Shown: in pieces, positions 4,728-29,235 of the stretch | Layout of the letters: every line of letters starts with the position of its first letter | Numbering within the stretch: the stretch's first letter is position 1 | IMG/VR virus record: IMGVR_UViG_3300034272_001613 | Span: 1 to 31,175 of that record | DNA: 31,175 bases | Direction: 5' to 3' (one strand) | DNA from: a virus | The notes under the pieces: generated by a model | Told to the model about the DNA's origin: nothing | The model's database searches: none | What the model saw: the letters and a program-made list of their open reading frames with translations, nothing else | Translations under genes and position numbers: made by a program

Positions 4728-5096
4728 TTATTTTTTACCTGGCAATTTAGCCATGTTATCAGCTACAGTTTTCTTAGAAACAGAACCTGTAACTTTTAGG
4801 TTTGAGAACTTAGAGTCAACTGACTTCTTAGGCTCAGATCCTTTTGCTGCAGGCATCTTTGAAGCTTTAGTGTCAACCATCTTCTTAGGTTCAGAACCTT
4901 TAGCCTTAGGCATAGGAGCCATCTCGTCTTTAACAGACTTCGTGATTGCTTTACCTTTAGTTCCTTCAAGTTTCGCCATTTTCGCATCAACTGATTTAGC
5001 TGATTTAGATCCACCGTTAGTAGGAAGAGTTGCAAGATCCTGATTCTTCTTCTCAGCGATGAACTCGAAATAATTTAATACTGGCTTAGTGCTCAT
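4728..5096 (-). CDS. Lysine-rich repeat protein with capsid-targeting-like N-terminus; candidate internal head protein
   Basis: This 122-residue, strongly basic protein starts MSTKPVLNYFEFIAEKK. The YFEFIAE stretch is almost the same as the YQEFIAE of the T4 capsid-targeting sequence, at the start of internal proteins IPI-III. From residue 27 to the end it consists of about five 18-20-residue units of pattern KGS-x-x-KK-x-V-D-x-K with a Leu/Met-Pro end. The composition (Lys, Ser, Ala, Pro) recalls DNA-binding histone-like tails. It directly follows the capsid gene, with its own terminator-promoter unit in front. I infer a DNA-associated protein packaged in the prohead. Confidence 0.75.
   Translation of the reverse strand: MSTKPVLNYFEFIAEKKNQDLATLPTNGGSKSAKSVDAKMAKLEGTKGKAITKSVKDEMAPMPKAKGSEPKKMVDTKASKMPAAKGSEPKKSVDSKFSNLKVTGSVSKKTVADNMAKLPGKK
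4731..5018 (-). repeat. Five degenerate ~19-residue coding repeats in the Lys-rich protein
   Basis: Units cover residues 27-122 with consensus KGSxxKKxVDxKxxxLP. The two central units both begin KGSEPKK. The plus strand shows the matching DNA repeats near 4800-4920, containing ttctta-ggttcaga. Confidence 0.75.
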
Positions 5097-5207: not shown

Positions 5208-6806
5208 TTACGCGATTAGACGGCTCGGATTACTTACTCCAAGAGTGAAGTACTGAGTTTCAGGATGCCATCCAGCTTCAGTGATAGCATAACGAGACTT
5301 CATACCGATCTTCGGAGAGAATGTACCCTCAGAGATAGTTTGAAGAGACTCTGCCATGATATACGGAAGGAATTTAACACCTGGCTCCTCATCTGCACCT
5401 TTACGGCCGATGATAATACGAGTGTCGTTGAACTTCATGTTAGGGTCAACGTATACAGTCAATCCGTATACTTTACCAGCTGGGTACAACTGACCTGCTC
5501 CAGAAGGAAGATCGTTGTTGAACGGAGCGATAACGTAGCCAGATACGTCTGCTAGAGCAGAAGCGATACGACCGTTAGTTACTACGAAAGTACCTGCACC
5601 GAAACGTCCTCTGTGGTAGATTAGGTTTGCGATTTCAAGGATCTTAGTAACAACTTTACGTTGGTTAGCTTGAAGAGTTAGAGCGTCAGCTCCTGCTGCA
5701 CCTGGATCAAGCAATGAAGCTAGAGTGTTAGATACACCTTCTAGAGCAGCTGCTTTAGTTGCGTGAGTAGCACCCAATTGAGCTACACGGTCAACAAGTT
5801 TCTTGTTGATTGATTGCGCAAGCTCGTTAACAGCTACGTTCTCCAACATTGAGATAACGTCGAAGTTCCATACTCTGTTAAGGTCTTGGATTTGCTCAAC
5901 TGATGCAGAGATCGCAACTTGGTCGCCTTTTGCTTCGATGAACTTAGTGAACATACGAAGACCCATTTGACGGAATTTTGATTGCTCCGCTTTTTCACGA
6001 GTCATTCCGAAAGCTGATTGTGAACCAGTTGTTTCGTAGAATGGACCGTTGAAGTCAGTTCCAGCGTAGTCAGCATCAGATACTGATGTAAAACCAGAAA
6101 TGTGGTTTTCAAGAGCTGATACTAATTCTACACCAGCAGTTGTTGCTGCGATACCAGCGTCAACTGCAGCTTGTGCTACAGTTACGGTTGAAGCATCGTC
6201 AACTGAAACTACTTTGTAGATTGGGTGACCATCAACACGTGATAAACCAACATATTTGAATGAGTGGTTAGCCGCGTCGATTGTATCGCCTGCGCCAGTA
6301 CCATCACCAGTTGAAGTACCAGTTACTGCTGCTGAGTCAGTTACTTTGATTAGGAACGGCTCGAAAGACGTACCTACGTTACCACCTTGGTAAACATAGT
6401 CAAGGTAAGGAAGGAAACCTACTGGAGAATCCATAGGAACAACACCAACTAGGTCGAAACCGATAGTTTTAGCTGCTACTTGGATAGCTACAGGCATCAA
6501 GCTTGGGAATTTATCACCAGAACCTGCGGTAGTTCCTTTTACACCACCTGCTGAGAAAGGGGTCATTGCGCTTGTTGGAGCTGCGATAGCGCCCATTGAG
6601 CTGATTGATCCTGGCTGTTGGAAGAACAAGCCTGGAGCTGCTGCTGCTTCGTTGATTGCACCAGCATTTTCGAAGATAGCGTGGTTGTGAGCATAGTCTA
6701 CTAACCAAGGACGTGCGTTGAGGTCAACACCATATCCTTCTAGTACAGGAGTCCAAGTTTCACGGACGCTAGCATCGTTAAGTCTTTTGAAAACTTTAGT
6801 TGCCAT
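5208..6806 (-). CDS. 23: Major capsid protein, gp23-like
   Basis: This 532-residue protein is close in size to T4 gp23 (521). The central part holds the gp23-type sequence AAKTIGFDLVGVVPMDSPVG (residues ~112-131), comparable with FDICGVQPMNSPTG in T4. The C-terminal half has the expected Y-HRGRFGAGTFVVTNGRIASAL and IIIGRKGADEEPGVKFLPYI segments. The N-terminal 53 residues end in INE followed by Ala, matching the T4 prohead protease site (I/L)-x-E/(A/G), so the mature protein should be about 479 residues. After the cut comes a Gly/Ala/Ser-rich arm with PGSISSMG (65-72). The ATG lies 22 bases after the scaffold stop. A late-promoter motif lies 152 bases upstream, inside the scaffold gene, and a strong terminator follows. 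Confidence 0.95.
   Translation of the reverse strand: MATKVFKRLNDASVRETWTPVLEGYGVDLNARPWLVDYAHNHAIFENAGAINEAAAAPGLFFQQPGSISSMGAIAAPTSAMTPFSAGGVKGTTAGSGDKFPSLMPVAIQVAAKTIGFDLVGVVPMDSPVGFLPYLDYVYQGGNVGTSFEPFLIKVTDSAAVTGTSTGDGTGAGDTIDAANHSFKYVGLSRVDGHPIYKVVSVDDASTVTVAQAAVDAGIAATTAGVELVSALENHISGFTSVSDADYAGTDFNGPFYETTGSQSAFGMTREKAEQSKFRQMGLRMFTKFIEAKGDQVAISASVEQIQDLNRVWNFDVISMLENVAVNELAQSINKKLVDRVAQLGATHATKAAALEGVSNTLASLLDPGAAGADALTLQANQRKVVTKILEIANLIYHRGRFGAGTFVVTNGRIASALADVSGYVIAPFNNDLPSGAGQLYPAGKVYGLTVYVDPNMKFNDTRIIIGRKGADEEPGVKFLPYIMAESLQTISEGTFSPKIGMKSRYAITEAGWHPETQYFTLGVSNPSRLIA
6645..6656 (-). other. Predicted prohead-protease cleavage site in the major capsid protein
   Basis: This encodes Ile51-Asn52-Glu53-Ala54. 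It fits the gp21 rule (I/L)-x-E before a small residue. Its position is comparable with the cut after Glu65 in T4 gp23. Confidence 0.7.
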
Positions 6807-6828: not shown

Positions 6829-8124
6829 TTAGTTTTGTGCTCTACGTTTTAGAGCTTCCAAGTAGTCGTTAGAGTAACCTCTAAGAGACTCTTGAACCTT
6901 ATTTAACGATACATAGCCTTCTGTACCTTGGCTCTCGTTAATTTTTTCTGAATTTGAGTTATTTATCGCGATTCTTTCGTAAATTCCGCGAAGATCTCTA
7001 GAATCCCAGAAAGATTTAACCTGGTAAGGTGTATTTAATTGGAAGTTGTGTGCTTGTGCAGCAACCCAATTTCTTTCTGCATCTGACATGCTTTCAAATA
7101 CTTCTTTGTATTTTTCAGGCATGAATCTTACGTAGTTCGGAATATTTTCGTTAGTCTTGTTAAGAACTGCTTCCATGATGTTGATAACTTCAGCTTCTGT
7201 GAAGTATACAGCACCTCTCATAGTTTCTACAATAGCAGTCTTCGTTTCTTGATCAAGAGCAAAGAATTTTTGCTTATTGTTTTCAGCTAGAAGCTTTAAG
7301 AACGGATATCTGTTTTCTAGAACTGCATTAGCTGAGTTAGATTTGATGTGGCTTAGAATACCATCAACTGCTCCAACTAGCTCATCAACTCCAGATTCTT
7401 CGTTGATTTCGTAATTAGCACCTTCATTAAGAGTTTTTACGTCAGCTAGAAGCTTACGTGCTGAAACTGCAGCTGAAGGAGTAAGTTTTTCGTTCATTGA
7501 TTCTGCAAGATACTCAGAGTATTTGATTCCTTTTTCAAGGTTTTCGCCAAGATAGTCTGCGTATTTGATAGCAGCTTCAAGGTTTTCTCCGATATACTCA
7601 GAGTATTTGATTCCTTTCTCTGCTTGTTCAGCAATGTATTCAGCGTATTGGATACCTTTGTCTGCTGCTTCTGCAACGTATTCAGTGTATTCAATATTCT
7701 TTTCAACTTGCTCAGCAACATACTCAGAATAGTTAATTGTTTGATTAACTTTCTCGCCTAAGTAGTCAGAGTACTGGATGTTTTGTTCAGTCTTCTCTGC
7801 AAGGTAGTCAGTGTAATCAATTACATTGTTTACTTTTTCTGCAACATGCTCTGTGTAGTTGATTCCTTTGTTCATCATGGTAGAAAGATAGTTAGTGTAT
7901 TCAACCATCTTTTCCATTTCGCCAGCTAAGTAGTTTACGTACTCAACTAGTTTAGGAGATTCGGTGCTCTCAGTCAAAGCAGAGATACCTTTATTGTTGT
8001 TGTTAATGCTTTCTTGAAGAGCCTCAAACTTCTTCTTCACTAGTTCGGAATATTGATTAAGTTCTTCTTTGCGTACAAACTCATTAGCCATTTGTTTGTT
8101 GTTATTTTGAGTAGTTGTGTTCAT
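6829..8124 (-). CDS. 22: Putative nested scaffold protein from an internal start
   Basis: Within the protease-scaffold ORF, a RATAAATAA motif (8132-8139) lies 7 bases before ATG 226 (8124) and 40 bases before ATG 237 (8091, MANEFVRKEE). Translation from either would give a 431- or 420-residue protein containing only the helical repeats and the C-terminal domain, in analogy to lambda Nu3 inside gene C. The second start has an A-rich leader like other genes here. T4 makes scaffold in large excess over protease, so a separate product would make sense. The evidence is the motif position and domain boundary only. Confidence 0.45.
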   Translation of the reverse strand: MNTTTQNNNKQMANEFVRKEELNQYSELVKKKFEALQESINNNNKGISALTESTESPKLVEYVNYLAGEMEKMVEYTNYLSTMMNKGINYTEHVAEKVNNVIDYTDYLAEKTEQNIQYSDYLGEKVNQTINYSEYVAEQVEKNIEYTEYVAEAADKGIQYAEYIAEQAEKGIKYSEYIGENLEAAIKYADYLGENLEKGIKYSEYLAESMNEKLTPSAAVSARKLLADVKTLNEGANYEINEESGVDELVGAVDGILSHIKSNSANAVLENRYPFLKLLAENNKQKFFALDQETKTAIVETMRGAVYFTEAEVINIMEAVLNKTNENIPNYVRFMPEKYKEVFESMSDAERNWVAAQAHNFQLNTPYQVKSFWDSRDLRGIYERIAINNSNSEKINESQGTEGYVSLNKVQESLRGYSNDYLEALKRRAQN

Positions 8125-8799
8125 TTCTGAATTATTTATCCTATAGACTCTCACAGAATCCTCGAAACTGAATCCTTCTGAAATATCAACTAGCTGGTTT
8201 GTAATCGCTGTCTGTTTTAAGTGGTCTAGCGATTCGAAAACGTTTGTAAATTGAGACTGTAGACTCTCATTAACTGTCTTTTGCAAGATAGCTTGTGAGA
8301 AACCAGGTTCAGCGACTAGGTCGTAAGTAAAGATCTTATGAAGTTTTACCTTTCCTTCATTCATTACTTGACCAGCGGCGCGAGATGAACAAGAGATAGT
8401 ACAACCAGCTTCAACTAGGGCCTTTGCGATTTGACCAGCTGGTGTATTTAGGATTCTAAGTTTGATCTTAACAGAATTAGATCCTTCATCGTAGCTTAGT
8501 CCTTCAATAACGTGTGAAACGTTCTTCAACGATACGTCAAAGCTTTGAGGGTGGTCTAATTCTCCGAACAGCTGTCCCTTAGAGATTTTTTCTTGCAGAT
8601 AAGAAAGGTGAGGTAAGTACTCTTCCTTTTCGTATACTCGGTTGTTATTGTTCTTAACGCCGAATACTGCAGCAGTTCCTTCCATAACGATATCACCGTT
8701 GTTGGTAGTCGCAGAAAGACCTTCATTCATTCTCTCGAGGATGAAGATTTGGCTGTCTGCTGGAACAGTAGTACTTAAGTTAATGATATTAGTATCCAC
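6829..8799 (-). CDS. 21: Prohead protease (gp21-like) fused in frame to prohead scaffold (gp22-like)
   Basis: This is a 656-residue ORF with a GTG start. Residues 1 to ~220 form a T4-type prohead protease, with catalytic His93 in FGELDHP, the Ser in TISCSSRAAG (138/139) and Asp160 in TYDLVAEPGF. The length fits T4 gp21 (212 residues). Residues 226-656 are a scaffold-like region: an Asn/Gln linker, a helix, eleven tandem 14-residue repeats (284-437), and a helical C-terminal region with several (I/L)-x-E sites (TLNEG, NIMEA, KINES). T4 encodes protease and scaffold separately. A late-promoter motif and two Met codons (226 and 237) sit exactly at the boundary, so the scaffold may also be made alone. 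Tandem late promoters precede the start. Confidence 0.85.
   Translation of the reverse strand: MDTNIINLSTTVPADSQIFILERMNEGLSATTNNGDIVMEGTAAVFGVKNNNNRVYEKEEYLPHLSYLQEKISKGQLFGELDHPQSFDVSLKNVSHVIEGLSYDEGSNSVKIKLRILNTPAGQIAKALVEAGCTISCSSRAAGQVMNEGKVKLHKIFTYDLVAEPGFSQAILQKTVNESLQSQFTNVFESLDHLKQTAITNQLVDISEGFSFEDSVRVYRINNSEMNTTTQNNNKQMANEFVRKEELNQYSELVKKKFEALQESINNNNKGISALTESTESPKLVEYVNYLAGEMEKMVEYTNYLSTMMNKGINYTEHVAEKVNNVIDYTDYLAEKTEQNIQYSDYLGEKVNQTINYSEYVAEQVEKNIEYTEYVAEAADKGIQYAEYIAEQAEKGIKYSEYIGENLEAAIKYADYLGENLEKGIKYSEYLAESMNEKLTPSAAVSARKLLADVKTLNEGANYEINEESGVDELVGAVDGILSHIKSNSANAVLENRYPFLKLLAENNKQKFFALDQETKTAIVETMRGAVYFTEAEVINIMEAVLNKTNENIPNYVRFMPEKYKEVFESMSDAERNWVAAQAHNFQLNTPYQVKSFWDSRDLRGIYERIAINNSNSEKINESQGTEGYVSLNKVQESLRGYSNDYLEALKRRAQN
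6959..6966 (-). promoter_or_regulatory. Late-promoter motif inside the scaffold gene, 152 bases before the capsid gene
   Basis: The minus strand reads GCGATAAATAACTC. It is the nearest RATAAATAA to the capsid start and could drive capsid-only transcripts. Being inside a coding region, it may also be chance. Confidence 0.45.
7489..7950 (-). repeat. Eleven tandem 14-residue (42-base) repeats in the scaffold
   Basis: Residues 284-437 are eleven units of pattern x-I-x-Y-(S/T/A)-(E/D)-Y-(L/V/I)-(A/G)-E-x-x-E-x, for example GIKYSEYIGENLEA and NIQYSDYLGEKVNQ. The phase is exact, with no insertions. The pattern predicts a long amphipathic helix with regularly spaced Tyr and Glu. Confidence 0.9.
8132..8139 (-). 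promoter_or_regulatory. Internal late-promoter motif at the protease/scaffold boundary
   Basis: The minus strand reads AGGATAAATAATTC, 7 bases upstream of the internal ATG at 8124. It codes for Arg-Ile-Asn-Asn. Confidence 0.5.
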
Positions 8800-8869: not shown

Positions 8870-8877
8870 TTATTTAT
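8870..8877 (-). promoter_or_regulatory. Late promoter upstream of the protease-scaffold gene (distal)
   Basis: The minus strand reads TAATAAATAACG, starting on the last base of the DnaJ-like gene stop codon and 70 bases before the GTG. It forms a tandem pair with the proximal motif. Confidence 0.5.
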
Positions 8878-9758
8878 TACGATCTAGATAAAAAATTCAC
8901 AAGATTTGATTTTTCCTCATCAGAAAGTGAAGATAGATCAGGTTTTAGGATGTAAGGTTTGAAAATATAACGACCGAGGCCGCCGGCTTCATTTCGAATG
9001 CCAGCTTCGCCAATGTTTATTGTGATACGACTAAAATTATCAGTATTAAAAGACTTGATTTTATAGCGCTTTCCATCAACTGATTCAAAAATAAGATCCT
9101 CTGGGTACAAGGCATCTTTTAAAGAAAGTGAGATATTGTGTACAATGTCAGATCCATCTATCTCAATGTCGTTAGTTGTGATCAATACATTGAGAATAAG
9201 GTCTCCTGTCTCTTCGTTTGAACTCCATGGAGTTATAACTTCTCCAGAATTTCCATAACCTTTTACTCGAAGCTTTACAGAATACAGACCCTTCTTCATT
9301 TTTGTCATTGCATAAAAAGCTTCTCGCAAATCAACTGACACTCTCACAGTTTGACTCTTTTGATTAGTTTCATACGATACTTCAAATGGCGTACCAGTAA
9401 GAACCGTTAGTAAATCGACTTGATGATTATGAATGATGTCAAGATCCTTTTTAGCCTTACGACTGAATCCTGAATTAAATGAGCTAAAATCAGAGTATTG
9501 ATATTCTCGATAAGCCGATTTACCAAAGCCGTGATCTCGAAACCCGCTAAAATCGAAGCTAGTCTGCTGTCTATCGTATTTAGCTTTCTTGGTTTCGTCA
9601 GACAGGGTCTCATACGCTTCAGTAATTTCTTTGAAGCGGCCCTCTCCATCTGGGTTTTTATCCGGATGGTACTTGAGTGCGAGTTTACGATAGGCTTTTT
9701 TAATATCGTCTTTCGTTGCATTCGTATCAAGTCCTAATGTATCGTAATAATTCGCCAC
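8877..9758 (-). CDS. DnaJ/CbpA-type cochaperone (Hsp40 class B)
   Basis: This 293-residue protein has an N-terminal J domain (1-62) with the DnaK-stimulating HPD at 31-33 ([10 protein letters not shown]) and the YDTLGL and EAYETLSD segments. A Gly/Phe-rich linker (~66-100) follows, then a beta-rich substrate-binding region (~105-290) as in CbpA (E. coli CbpA is 306 residues). There are no CxxCxGxG zinc motifs. The start is GTG, 19 bases after the spike gene. Its place between spike and protease-scaffold genes suggests it recruits host DnaK for head or tail assembly, much as T4 encodes gp31 for capsid folding. The family assignment is firm and the target is inference. Confidence 0.93.
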
Positions 9759-18170: not shown

Positions 18171-18539
18171 TTAGATTCCTTGCTCTCTTCTAAGCATCAT
18201 TTCGTCATGCTCCATTTGATCCTTAGACATTTGGTCAAGTTCCTCTTCTGAGTATTTACCTTGTTTGCTAGGCTCATCCATTTCGCCTTTGATAAAATTG
18301 AATACTTCTTCAATATCGTCTTTTGACGTAGCGATATGATCTACTGCCCAGCTGTGTCCATTTTGTAGAAGTTTATCTACTTCAATTGGATCCATTGTCA
18401 ATAGCATTTCGCATTGTCTTTTGATTTGCTCTAGATTACCAAAGAACATGTAGTTCTCTGCTTCATGTTGAGCCTCATGATCAATATTCATATTGTCGTT
18501 TTCATTAACGAATTGATCAAATCTTTTAAGTAGTGCCAT
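18171..18539 (-). CDS. Small acidic protein with capsid-targeting-like N-terminus
   Basis: This 122-residue protein begins MALLKRFDQFVNENDN, another F-x-x-F-(V/I)-x-E start. The rest is helical, Met/Glu/Asp-rich, with the conserved-looking stretch NGHSWAVDHIATSKDDIEEV (residues ~60-79) that I recognise from small proteins of other large phages, without known function. The ATG overlaps the previous stop by one base. A packaged head protein is plausible from the N-terminus. It could also be a host-takeover protein. Confidence 0.7.
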   Translation of the reverse strand: MALLKRFDQFVNENDNMNIDHEAQHEAENYMFFGNLEQIKRQCEMLLTMDPIEVDKLLQNGHSWAVDHIATSKDDIEEVFNFIKGEMDEPSKQGKYSEEELDQMSKDQMEHDEMMLRREQGI

Positions 18540-20029
18540 TATTGTTGATTTTTATTTTTCCAAAATTCTGCGAATTCCATGATTCGCTTTTTCTTTTTCT
18601 TTGGATTGAAGTTATCTCCTGATCCAAGAGAAGTTTGAGTAGGTGGCGTAATTGGACCCATTGAACCAATTGATCCGGGTACCTGAAATGCTACACCGGG
18701 ACCAGCTTCCTCATTAGCTTTCGCTTTCGCGGCATATTTGTCCAAGTATTCAGTAGTCGGCATCATTAATCTAGATATTGCATCAGCTTTCATTTCGCCT
18801 TCTCTGCCTTTGACCGCTTTACCAATAGTCTTTGCTAACTTGTTTAGACCTATTGAATAGATTGTTGAGAATCCTTTACCTATCTCTTCAGCTGCTCTAT
18901 AGCCAGCCGTTTGATTAGTCGGAGTAAAGATTGTATTGAGTAGGTCAGATGCTTTTTTACGAGCTCTACCTAAAAACGATGCATCTGCAATTTGTTTACC
19001 AGACACAGGTAACATAACAGTTTGAAATAATGGAAGTTTGATATTGAAATCATAGTGAATTCCCTTGTTCATATCGATCTTAATCGACTTGTCTTGGGCC
19101 TTTTTAAGAAGAGTCTCTTCGATTTGAGTTACCCATGACGTCAAATATGCTTTTGAATCTTCATCCAAATTTTCGTTTTGACCAATTCTAACCATTTTTA
19201 ATAAACGAGCAGTTTCCTTGATTTCCGCTTCAGTTGAATAGAGCTGTTCGTATTCTAAAATATCTTGAACGATCTTTGTGAAGTGAATGTTTGCTTTACG
19301 GCCAGACTTTATCTCTTCGAGCTTATCTTGACCAATTTCTTTAGCAACCTCATCTTCAATCTTTTTAGATGCGTCAGTTACTCCAACTTTAACTTCTTCT
19401 GGATACTCTTCAGTAATTTCCTCAAGAATTTGAACGTCTTCAATTACGGCAGCTGCTGCGTTAATCTTTTCAGCTTCGTCATCCGATTTTTTAATAACGA
19501 CTAATTTATTCTTAACTTCCTCCGATTTTACTAGGATCGGAGAATAGTAATATGCAAATATGTCTTCTCTAATCGAACTAAGTTTTGAAATCACAGGTGC
19601 AGATTTCTCGCTCTTTGCTCTAGAGTAGATCAAATTAAGAGTATCAATTCTATCCGAGATCTTAGCAATATCTAAATTGAGAGATTTGATGTAGTCTGGA
19701 TTTTGAACCATCGACTTTAGCGCCTCAGCTAGTTTAGTTTTAGCGATCCCGATTCTGATTTTACAATATTCCAAGTAATCGTTCATTGTAGAAATTACTT
19801 GATCTGCTGTAAACGCATTGATAAAGTTCTCGTTATTCAAATAACGTTGAACATCACCATCAATCAAATCATCGATCCACTTGTCGATCTTGTCGTATTT
19901 GTCCTGTTTTTGACTAGTGCTGTCGCCGTCACCGCCTGAGACCTGAGCAAGATCATTGCCTACGCGAATGATATCCGCTTCTAGTAGAAGGTCCTCGTAT
20001 TTTGCAAGTCTTGTTACTTTTAATCTCAT
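18539..20029 (-). CDS. Helical 496-residue protein carrying a capsid N-arm-like segment
   Basis: The N-terminus RLAKYEDLLLEADI again resembles a targeting/cleavage segment (LLE/A). Residues ~40-310 are mostly charged helix with Glu/Lys/Ile pattern. Residues 320-435 include GIHYDFNIKLPLFQ and an amphipathic Gly/Lys region. Residues 444-474 copy the start of the mature capsid protein: P-G-x-x-F-Q-x-P-G-S-I-x-S-M-G-x-I-x-x-P-T, and then GSGDNF against GSGDKF. After this come five Lys and a second targeting-like tail IMEFAEFWKN. I know no homologue. A prohead core or capsid-lining role is inferred from the shared arm. Overlaps couple it to both neighbours. Confidence 0.75.
   Translation of the reverse strand: MRLKVTRLAKYEDLLLEADIIRVGNDLAQVSGGDGDSTSQKQDKYDKIDKWIDDLIDGDVQRYLNNENFINAFTADQVISTMNDYLEYCKIRIGIAKTKLAEALKSMVQNPDYIKSLNLDIAKISDRIDTLNLIYSRAKSEKSAPVISKLSSIREDIFAYYYSPILVKSEEVKNKLVVIKKSDDEAEKINAAAAVIEDVQILEEITEEYPEEVKVGVTDASKKIEDEVAKEIGQDKLEEIKSGRKANIHFTKIVQDILEYEQLYSTEAEIKETARLLKMVRIGQNENLDEDSKAYLTSWVTQIEETLLKKAQDKSIKIDMNKGIHYDFNIKLPLFQTVMLPVSGKQIADASFLGRARKKASDLLNTIFTPTNQTAGYRAAEEIGKGFSTIYSIGLNKLAKTIGKAVKGREGEMKADAISRLMMPTTEYLDKYAAKAKANEEAGPGVAFQVPGSIGSMGPITPPTQTSLGSGDNFNPKKKKKRIMEFAEFWKNKNQQ
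18608..18700 (-). other. Capsid N-arm-like segment (PGSIxSMG module)
   Basis: This encodes residues 444-474. Fourteen of 21 positions (444-464) are identical, without gaps, to residues 58-78 of the major capsid protein, and GSGD-x-F follows in both. Confidence 0.8.
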
Positions 20030-28458: not shown

Positions 28459-29235
28459 TTAATAACTTTCGTGATAATTTTCTCTTTCGTTCTCAAGGAA
28501 GGTTTCCTTTGCAGTTTGTTCAAACTCTTCGTGAGCTTTTATTACGAATTGGCAAGCCTCTTCGTGTGTCTTAAGAGTCTTTAGCGCATCTTCTGCTTCT
28601 CTCTTTAGATCATTATATTCATTCATGATATGATCGTAATTTGCAGTGTCGCCAATTAGACCAACTTCTGCAAGATTTTCTCTTTCTTCTGGTGTCAAAT
28701 TCAAAATCGAGTTAATCTCCTGAATTTCGGCATCGCTTAGTTCGTTAACTGCCTCCATGTAAGAGTCTAAGTACGTATCCAAATCACTAATAATGTCTTC
28801 AGGATCCTTGTCCGGTACAAGCAACATCCATCCGCCACTTCTGCCGCCCATTGAAATCTTGTCGAAATCTGCTCCAAATTTCTCTAGGAATACGTTCTGT
28901 TCAAAATCTTCGATCTCGTCGTTTAGGAATCTGAACCAGCGATCCATCATCGTTTCTTCATATTCGTCAGGTTCACCAATAGCTTCTCGCCAATCATCAA
29001 CATCCGGCCATTCATAGGTCTTAACGTTGATTGCGTAGTGAGAACTTCGTTGCTCTCTGCTTTCTCGATTATACCAATAAGAGCTACGATCCATCATGTG
29101 ATTTGCTTGAGCGTCACATGCTTCCAATAGCTTTTTAATAGGTTCCCCAAGCACAGGAATCTTCATATACTCAGCTTCTGAGTAATTGTCTGATGATTCA
29201 TTAATAAACTGTTGGAAACCTTTTAGAAATCTCAC
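28459..29235 (-). CDS. Acidic hypothetical protein with capsid-targeting-like N-terminus
   Basis: This 258-residue protein starts MRFLKGFQQFINESSDN, a close match to the pattern seen in the head cluster (F-x-x-F-I-N-E). The rest is acidic and helical with a Tyr/Trp/Arg-rich middle (SSYWYNRESREQRSSHY) and a Gly/Arg segment (MGGRSGGWMLLVPD). Residues ~178-195 contain LTPEERENLAEVGL, shared with the next gene. No enzyme motif. The ATG overlaps the previous stop by ATGA. It may be a packaged early-acting protein. Confidence 0.7.
   Translation of the reverse strand: MRFLKGFQQFINESSDNYSEAEYMKIPVLGEPIKKLLEACDAQANHMMDRSSYWYNRESREQRSSHYAINVKTYEWPDVDDWREAIGEPDEYEETMMDRWFRFLNDEIEDFEQNVFLEKFGADFDKISMGGRSGGWMLLVPDKDPEDIISDLDTYLDSYMEAVNELSDAEIQEINSILNLTPEERENLAEVGLIGDTANYDHIMNEYNDLKREAEDALKTLKTHEEACQFVIKAHEEFEQTAKETFLENERENYHESY

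Follow-up and report, generated by a model that had tools for sequence, protein, structure and literature searches.

A second protein bearing the capsid N-terminal arm suggests an overlooked part of head building in T4-like phages

Mature gp23 of bacteriophage T4 starts with the N-fist, ~25 residues (66-91) that contact four subunits across two capsomers (PMC7136217, PMC9958956). The N-fist is disordered inside the unexpanded T4 prohead and becomes ordered upon expansion, and the five N-fists by the portal are disordered because they face the portal rather than a capsomer (PMC9958956, PMC7136217). The T4 protease also removes the N-terminal peptides of IPII and IPIII (PMC9958956), and in phage P1 the internal capsid-bound protein DarA is cut next to the capsid protein's cut (PMC12810830).

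We analysed a window of 31,175 nucleotides, the whole stretch of DNA under study (IMG/VR record IMGVR_UViG_3300034272_001613), which encodes a gp23-like major capsid protein (MCP) and a 496-residue protein, here P496 (Table 1). The best INPHARED relatives of the MCP come from Lak phages and from huge phages and reach about 38%. An earlier note on this DNA had reported that residues 444-464 of P496 match residues 58-78 of the MCP at 14/21 positions without a gap (PGxxFQxPGSIxSMGxIxxPT), with GSGD-x-F following in both, and alignment confirmed this; the following motif is GSGDNF in P496 and GSGDKF in the MCP. The note had also placed the common segment at what becomes the new N-terminus of the capsid protein, five residues past the predicted cut. 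The position fits, since E53|A54 in 'INE|AAAAPG' of the MCP resembles a gp21-type cut and P58 would be the fifth residue past it. The MCP arm occupies the same place as the gp23 N-fist. The correspondence is one of position, and the sequences alone do not align: the N-fist belongs to gp23 itself and the window arm has its own sequence. The AlphaFold2 model of the window MCP was poor (pLDDT 49.5) and was set aside.

Table 1 Positions of the arm-carrying protein, the capsid protein and related features in the window, and of gp61.1 genes.
Feature	Position	Strand	Evidence
P496, 496-aa arm carrier (helical body, arm, Lys-rich stretch, C-terminal targeting-like motif)	18539..20029	minus	ORF, homologues, AlphaFold2
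Common arm in P496, residues 444-474 (PGVAFQVPGSIGSMGPITPPT...GSGDNF), N-fist equivalent	18608..18700	minus	family-wide conservation
Candidate prohead-protease site in P496, residues 438-442, ANE|EA (after E440 or E441)	18704..18718	minus	cleavage inferred
Lys-rich stretch KKKKKR of P496, residues 477-482	18584..18601	minus	
Capsid-targeting-like motif MEFAEFWKN at P496 C-terminus, residues 484-492	18554..18580	minus	function inferred from resemblance
Major capsid protein (MCP), gp23-like, 532 aa	5208..6806	minus	Pfam Gp23, E 9.6e-40
MCP arm, residues 58-78 (PGLFFQQPGSISSMGAIAAPT), within first ~25 residues after inferred cut E53|A54	6573..6635	minus	
MCP GSGDKF, residues 95-100, common to both proteins	6507..6524	minus	
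Prohead protease-scaffold fusion, 656 aa, probably the processing enzyme	6829..8799	minus	phrog_207 E 4.5e-35; Peptidase_S77 E 8.5e-10
T4 gene 61.1	L395:967-1131		
Relatives of gp61.1	L400:174-674; L404:183-659		

The P496 and MCP arms gave a Smith-Waterman score of 86, whereas the best of 1000 shuffles reached 77, for a fitted p of about 2e-5, and the arm match had an E of 1.0e-4 when the window's own record was searched. Among the 450 stop-to-stop ORFs of the window, MCP excluded, the second-best ORF scored 37. The DNA of the two arms is identical at 37/63 positions, and the same codon is used for 4/14 of the identical residues. This suggested that the similarity is old and has been kept by selection at the protein level, with no recent copying of DNA. 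Recent gene conversion between the MCP and P496 genes was ruled out by the codon use.

The AlphaFold2 model of P496 (mean pLDDT 68.9) consists mostly of helices over residues 5-440, in agreement with the helical body described in the earlier note, followed by a disordered arm region (residues 437-484, pLDDT <50) and a short predicted C-terminal helix (residues 486-495). An arm profile recovered the same bases of the P496 ORF as the alignment (18608-18700, minus strand). A fold search of the model against the PDB returned 0 matches at E<=0.001 and scattered helical hits, and no relative was found among PDB sequences by profile search. P496, predicted to be helical, had no Pfam Gp23 match and resembles the capsid protein in its arm alone, and neither the Peptidase_S77 nor the head-maturation-protease profile fell on it, both falling on the separate 656-aa protein. 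A portal identity was ruled out by a separate portal gene (Portal_T4, PF07230) away from P496 in 12/14 records; no portal gene was found in the window or in G001. The P496 gene is flanked by a Dps-like/DUF5856 gene and a 122-aa ORF.

Several other genes of the window were inspected. The scaffold part of the protease-scaffold fusion (7501-7821, minus strand) contains 8 copies of IxYxxYxxE at 14-residue spacing (for example IKYSEYIGE), which is the same pattern as the capsid-targeting-like motifs at the termini of other proteins in the window. A scaffold repeat may be what the T4-type targeting sequence imitates. Motifs of this kind (LRYNEFVNE, LNYFEFIAE, KRFDQFVNE and KGFQQFINE) were found in four more proteins, encoded at 2280-2927, 4728-5096, 18171-18539 and 28459-29235, all on the minus strand, and these four are candidates for packaged or core proteins. 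A DnaJ-like gene (8877-9758, minus strand) lies directly before the protease-scaffold gene, a position kept in the related contigs inspected, where glycosyltransferase-like genes are sometimes inserted beside it.

No P496 homologue was found by tblastn against INPHARED or in an initial scan of IMG/VR with the single P496 sequence. Homologues surfaced only when whole records carrying a related capsid gene were searched, with body-wide homologues in 24/50 such records. An alignment-based scan of IMG/VR then gave 57 P496 loci, all with the arm at the C-terminus: 51 have the strict pattern, 5 have variants (L183/L184 and L167/L169/L178), and one arm is ended by the contig edge (L193). The family plan is a helical body, [VIFA]xE, (A/G)PGVxxQxPGSIGSMGPITPPTxTxxGSGDxF, KKKKKK and ILGFADFIKEQNN. 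The terminal motif reads LGFADFIKE in most homologues, and an N-terminal LLLEAD segment is also conserved. Mean pairwise identity was 0.75 in the arm versus 0.36 in the body (19 paired contigs). An [VILFMA]xE site lies within 14 residues before the arm in 38/38 unique homologues (38 of 39, one truncated protein being skipped), compared with 36% of random body segments; in P496 itself the protease-like ANE|E departs from the classic I/L-x-E. Taken by itself, the single window pair would leave some room for chance, or for a duplicated capsid gene that left behind a remnant without function. The diverged silent sites (4/14 codons), an arm that is the best-conserved part of the protein and is present at 57/57 loci, and its recurrence in distant lineages argue against that reading, which we consider very improbable and refuted by conservation. 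As the arm is the conserved part of the homologues, the arm sharing, as judged from sequence comparison, is not due to chance. Sequence support for the sharing and for its conservation is strong.

We then surveyed 38 records with the arm profile (A3). Of these, 21 had an arm in the capsid gene as well as in a P496-type gene, 10 in the capsid gene only and one (G057) in P496 only; two Lak records gave weak small-ORF hits and 4 gave nothing. The profile misses the carriers of PTm1, LR756500 and G040, which are found by own-arm scans or by BLAST against other capsid proteins. G040, a capsid-only record by profile, has a 679-aa carrier where the gene order would place P496, and this carrier and the 640-aa carrier of G039 adjoin the same baseplate genes. 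The bodies of both showed no recognisable similarity. The long linker of the G040 MCP recurs in the carrier of that record (APTPNDTPF...KT...SGSGDDF in the carrier, APTPTQSPF...KT...SGSGDKF in the MCP). In the clade of G030, G037 and G036, the arm is degenerate and has lost its second half, while the MCP retains the whole arm. G030 and G037 have a P496 homologue with such an arm, and in G036 the protein is reduced to a free-standing C-terminal segment of ~84 aa that keeps the layout. The remaining capsid-only records include short contigs. The earlier note had held that homologues losing the motif while the capsid protein keeps it would speak against its proposal that the second protein may dock in the same capsid pocket, for instance as a core-to-shell linker or minor capsid component; such loss was seen in part in the clade of G030, G037 and G036, although the motif was kept at every locus of the IMG/VR scan.

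Covariation of the two arms was analysed in 19 of 23 paired contigs, leaving out the divergent G039, G040 and G030 and the duplicate c42463. The spacing from the protease-like Glu to PG was equal in both proteins in 14/19 pairs versus a permuted mean of 6.8 (Spearman 0.76), where the Glu was picked with V/I/F/L/M at P3, else A, and a different rule would move a few values. Distances among carrier arms followed those among capsid arms (Mantel r 0.76), with a partial r of 0.36 given both bodies (p 0.006). Arm identity was barely higher within contigs than across them (12.2 versus 11.6 of 21 in the 19 window-type pairs). This small excess suggested that shared ancestry makes part of the signal. 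Phylogeny explains much of the Mantel correlation. The covariation raised in the earlier note was thus borne out between lineages, where the carrier arm changes with the capsid arm, but the same-contig excess is slight, and there was none within Straboviridae (below).

Other phage genomes were each scanned using the N-terminal part of the capsid protein that they encode, for which the best shuffled arms scored 37-62. Carriers were found in Tenacibaculum phage PTm1 (ORF-299, 277 aa, between the portal and protease genes, score 109), the 462-kb huge phage LR756500.1 (a 140-aa ORF, score 95), Lak-A2 (an 80-aa stop-to-stop ORF in genetic code 15, score 74), cyanophage P-RSM4 (PRSM4_198, score 105, with the arm at the extreme N-terminus and no cut site before it) and T4 (gp61.1, score 82 versus 45-62 for shuffled arms). 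The bodies of these five carriers are unrelated. Bakedbeans gp26 (64 aa) was borderline at 49 versus 44-51 for shuffled arms. No carrier above noise was found in the whole genomes of MaF61, MA9V-2, pT24 and PAU, in 100 of 634.8 kb of LR745206 or in 140 of 735.4 kb of LR756501. A 65-aa ORF of pT24 (71195-71389, minus strand, in record L309) has the layout of a site, GMGS... and KKKKK; its score of 39 is at the level of noise and it is a candidate. In a matrix of 12 carriers by 12 capsid arms, with carrier segments hand-picked after the scans, the own MCP was the best match in 10/12 rows; the exceptions were T4 and VmeM32, which other Straboviridae capsid arms match equally or better. Beyond the matched stretch, Lys and Arg account for 24-65% of the next residues (up to 25) in all 12 carriers. 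What the carriers have in common is thus the capsid arm, conserved above the body in the P496 family, with a basic tail behind it and a match to the own capsid arm across distant lineages. Carriers may have arisen repeatedly on otherwise unrelated proteins. Separately, the N-terminal half of PTm1 ORF-299 (L088:16299-17132) resembles parts of DarB-like antirestriction proteins from other phages, a hint of a tie to capsid-packaged injected proteins.

The T4 carrier gp61.1 (NP_049649.1) has 54 residues (MKTFKEFIKEDMVAGDSGGNPENISIGTTSGAVVNKGPEQIPKKKKEESKEKEE), laid out as a capsid-targeting sequence of the IPII/IPIII type, a gp21-like site, an N-fist copy and a lysine-rich tail. Among 2387 T4 ORFs of at least 30 aa, the pattern MK[TS][FYL]x[EDQ][FYL][ILVM]x[ED] occurs in three, namely ipII, ipIII and gp61.1. 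From the Glu on, gp61.1 and gp23 after its known cut are identical at 14/28 positions, in register and ungapped. In 10/10 Straboviridae genomes, a gp61.1 query matched exactly two places, gp61.1 itself and gp23, and in INPHARED it matched 1438/50,697 records at E<=1, some of the places being gp23 itself. Several relatives have about 70 or more extra N-terminal residues, with the N-fist copy near the C-terminus and then a basic tail. Glu spacing is equal in 6/10 Straboviridae pairs. Identity of gp61.1 to its own gp23 is no closer than to others (13.5 versus 13.8 of 28), so fine-scale covariation is absent within Straboviridae. Only TATAAA-like words, and nothing usable as a T4 late promoter, were found upstream of 61.1.

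P496 and gp61.1 are alike in having a protease-like Glu, a copy of the own capsid N-fist or arm and a Lys/Arg-rich tail. They differ in that gp61.1 is small, carries its T4-type targeting sequence at the N-terminus whereas the targeting-like motif of P496 is C-terminal, lies beside the primase gene 61, and copies gp23, not the window arm. No similarity to the P496 body was found in gp61.1, and the gp61.1 profiles phrog_1823 and phrog_2086, both annotated 'unknown function', did not match P496, seven homologues or L118. IPII and IPIII are small, core-targeted and protease-processed, as gp61.1 would be, and have the N-terminal pattern in common with it. Unlike gp61.1, they had no N-fist copy after the cut in the T4 own-arm scan. 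GenBank gives some gp61.1 proteins the name 'major capsid protein' or 'capsid vertex protein' (for example in PG216, and 'T4 gp23-like' in Miller), and PHROG 696 'major head protein' includes the cyanophage carrier PRSM4_198. These names apparently arose because of the N-fist copy and indicate that annotators or their programs had noticed the likeness. The gp61.1 protein is listed in an annotation table of PMC3468402 and named in PMC12895675. In the literature searched, with most subscription journals outside it, neither a gp61.1 function nor arm sharing was described.

The conserved site before the arm raises the alternative that the arm serves chiefly to be recognised by the prohead protease, or by a chaperone presenting substrates to it, with no docking in the shell. 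The Glu found before the arm in every unique P496 homologue and in gp61.1, and a likeness that starts at the cut or just before it, fit such a role. However, the T4 likeness extends 28 residues beyond the cut, the P-RSM4 arm has no preceding site, and IPII and IPIII are cut by the protease (PMC9958956) without an arm, the next T4 ORF scoring 50 with shuffled arms at up to 62. This alternative appears unlikely.

We also weighed whether the arm binds the scaffold/protease core, as a core-targeting element of both capsid protein and carrier that makes no shell contact. This is consistent with a gp23 N-terminal region that is disordered in the interior of unexpanded T4 proheads (PMC9958956) and with the additional targeting-like motifs on carriers. 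On the other hand, the ordered contacts described for T4 are made to capsid subunits once the shell has expanded (PMC9958956, PMC7136217), and T4 has a separate targeting sequence for the core. We give this possibility a low probability as well.

On balance, we favour, by a little, the reading that P496 belongs to the head core and that its last ~56 residues act as a detachable N-fist mimic docking in the capsid N-fist sockets. In this proposal, the targeting-like motifs would bring the carrier into the prohead scaffold core, as may the IPII/IPIII-type N-terminal sequence of gp61.1. The prohead protease would cut at the conserved site before the carrier arm, as in the capsid protein, leaving a short peptide with an N-fist-like start. 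Upon shell expansion, this new N-terminus would dock at capsid N-fist sites, most likely in sockets that the capsid protein cannot fill, by the portal or at pentons where the vertex protein has no N-fist (as in T4). The Lys/Arg-rich tail would remain inside, holding DNA or leftover acidic core protein to the shell. No second full-length capsid paralogue was found in seven records (long window-type or PTm1 genomes), so that any unoccupied sites of the window-type phages should lie chiefly at the portal vertex.

Comparable arrangements exist elsewhere. In adenovirus, an unrelated virus, the processed N-terminal peptides of different proteins, from core and cement, use one hexon pocket; these peptides are not known to copy the capsid protein's own arm. 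P1 DarA is similar in being an internal protein that is processed by the prohead protease and binds the inner face of the shell, by the DNA (PMC12810830), and is unlike the carriers in that arm sharing was not found in 90 of the 94.8 kb of P1 scanned.

The carrier arms also show consistent differences from the capsid arms: GDSGG in gp61.1 versus GDHGY in gp23 in most Straboviridae pairs, and PGVxxQ in P496 versus PGLFxQQ in the capsid arm. Such differences, as in a weaker or modified ligand, would suit a timing factor, in which the mimic occupies or competes for N-fist sites, delays expansion or arm docking until packaging and may leave the mature head. A timing role does not specifically account for the basic tails and the free-standing small versions, and seems improbable to us.

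Extending the docking reading to the whole T4 supergroup is a step we take more tentatively, at somewhat under even chances. A conserved, unrecognised head component, including gp61.1, would use a cut N-fist mimic to fill empty sockets and to fasten a DNA-binding tail or mark vertices, with carriers built repeatedly and following their own capsid arm. If true, this would explain the 'major capsid/head protein' labels on some gp61.1 proteins and on their cyanophage counterpart. Although T4 head assembly is textbook material, gp61.1, with its signal, site, N-fist copy and tail, seems to be without a described function in the literature searched. If docking occurs, the capsid protein would share N-fist sites with another ligand, with consequences for the control of expansion, vertex identity and DNA organisation. 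Scanning a genome with its own capsid arm offers a route to unrecognised head proteins in phages of the T4 kind, and the results suggest that arm carriers are an overlooked part of T4-like head building.
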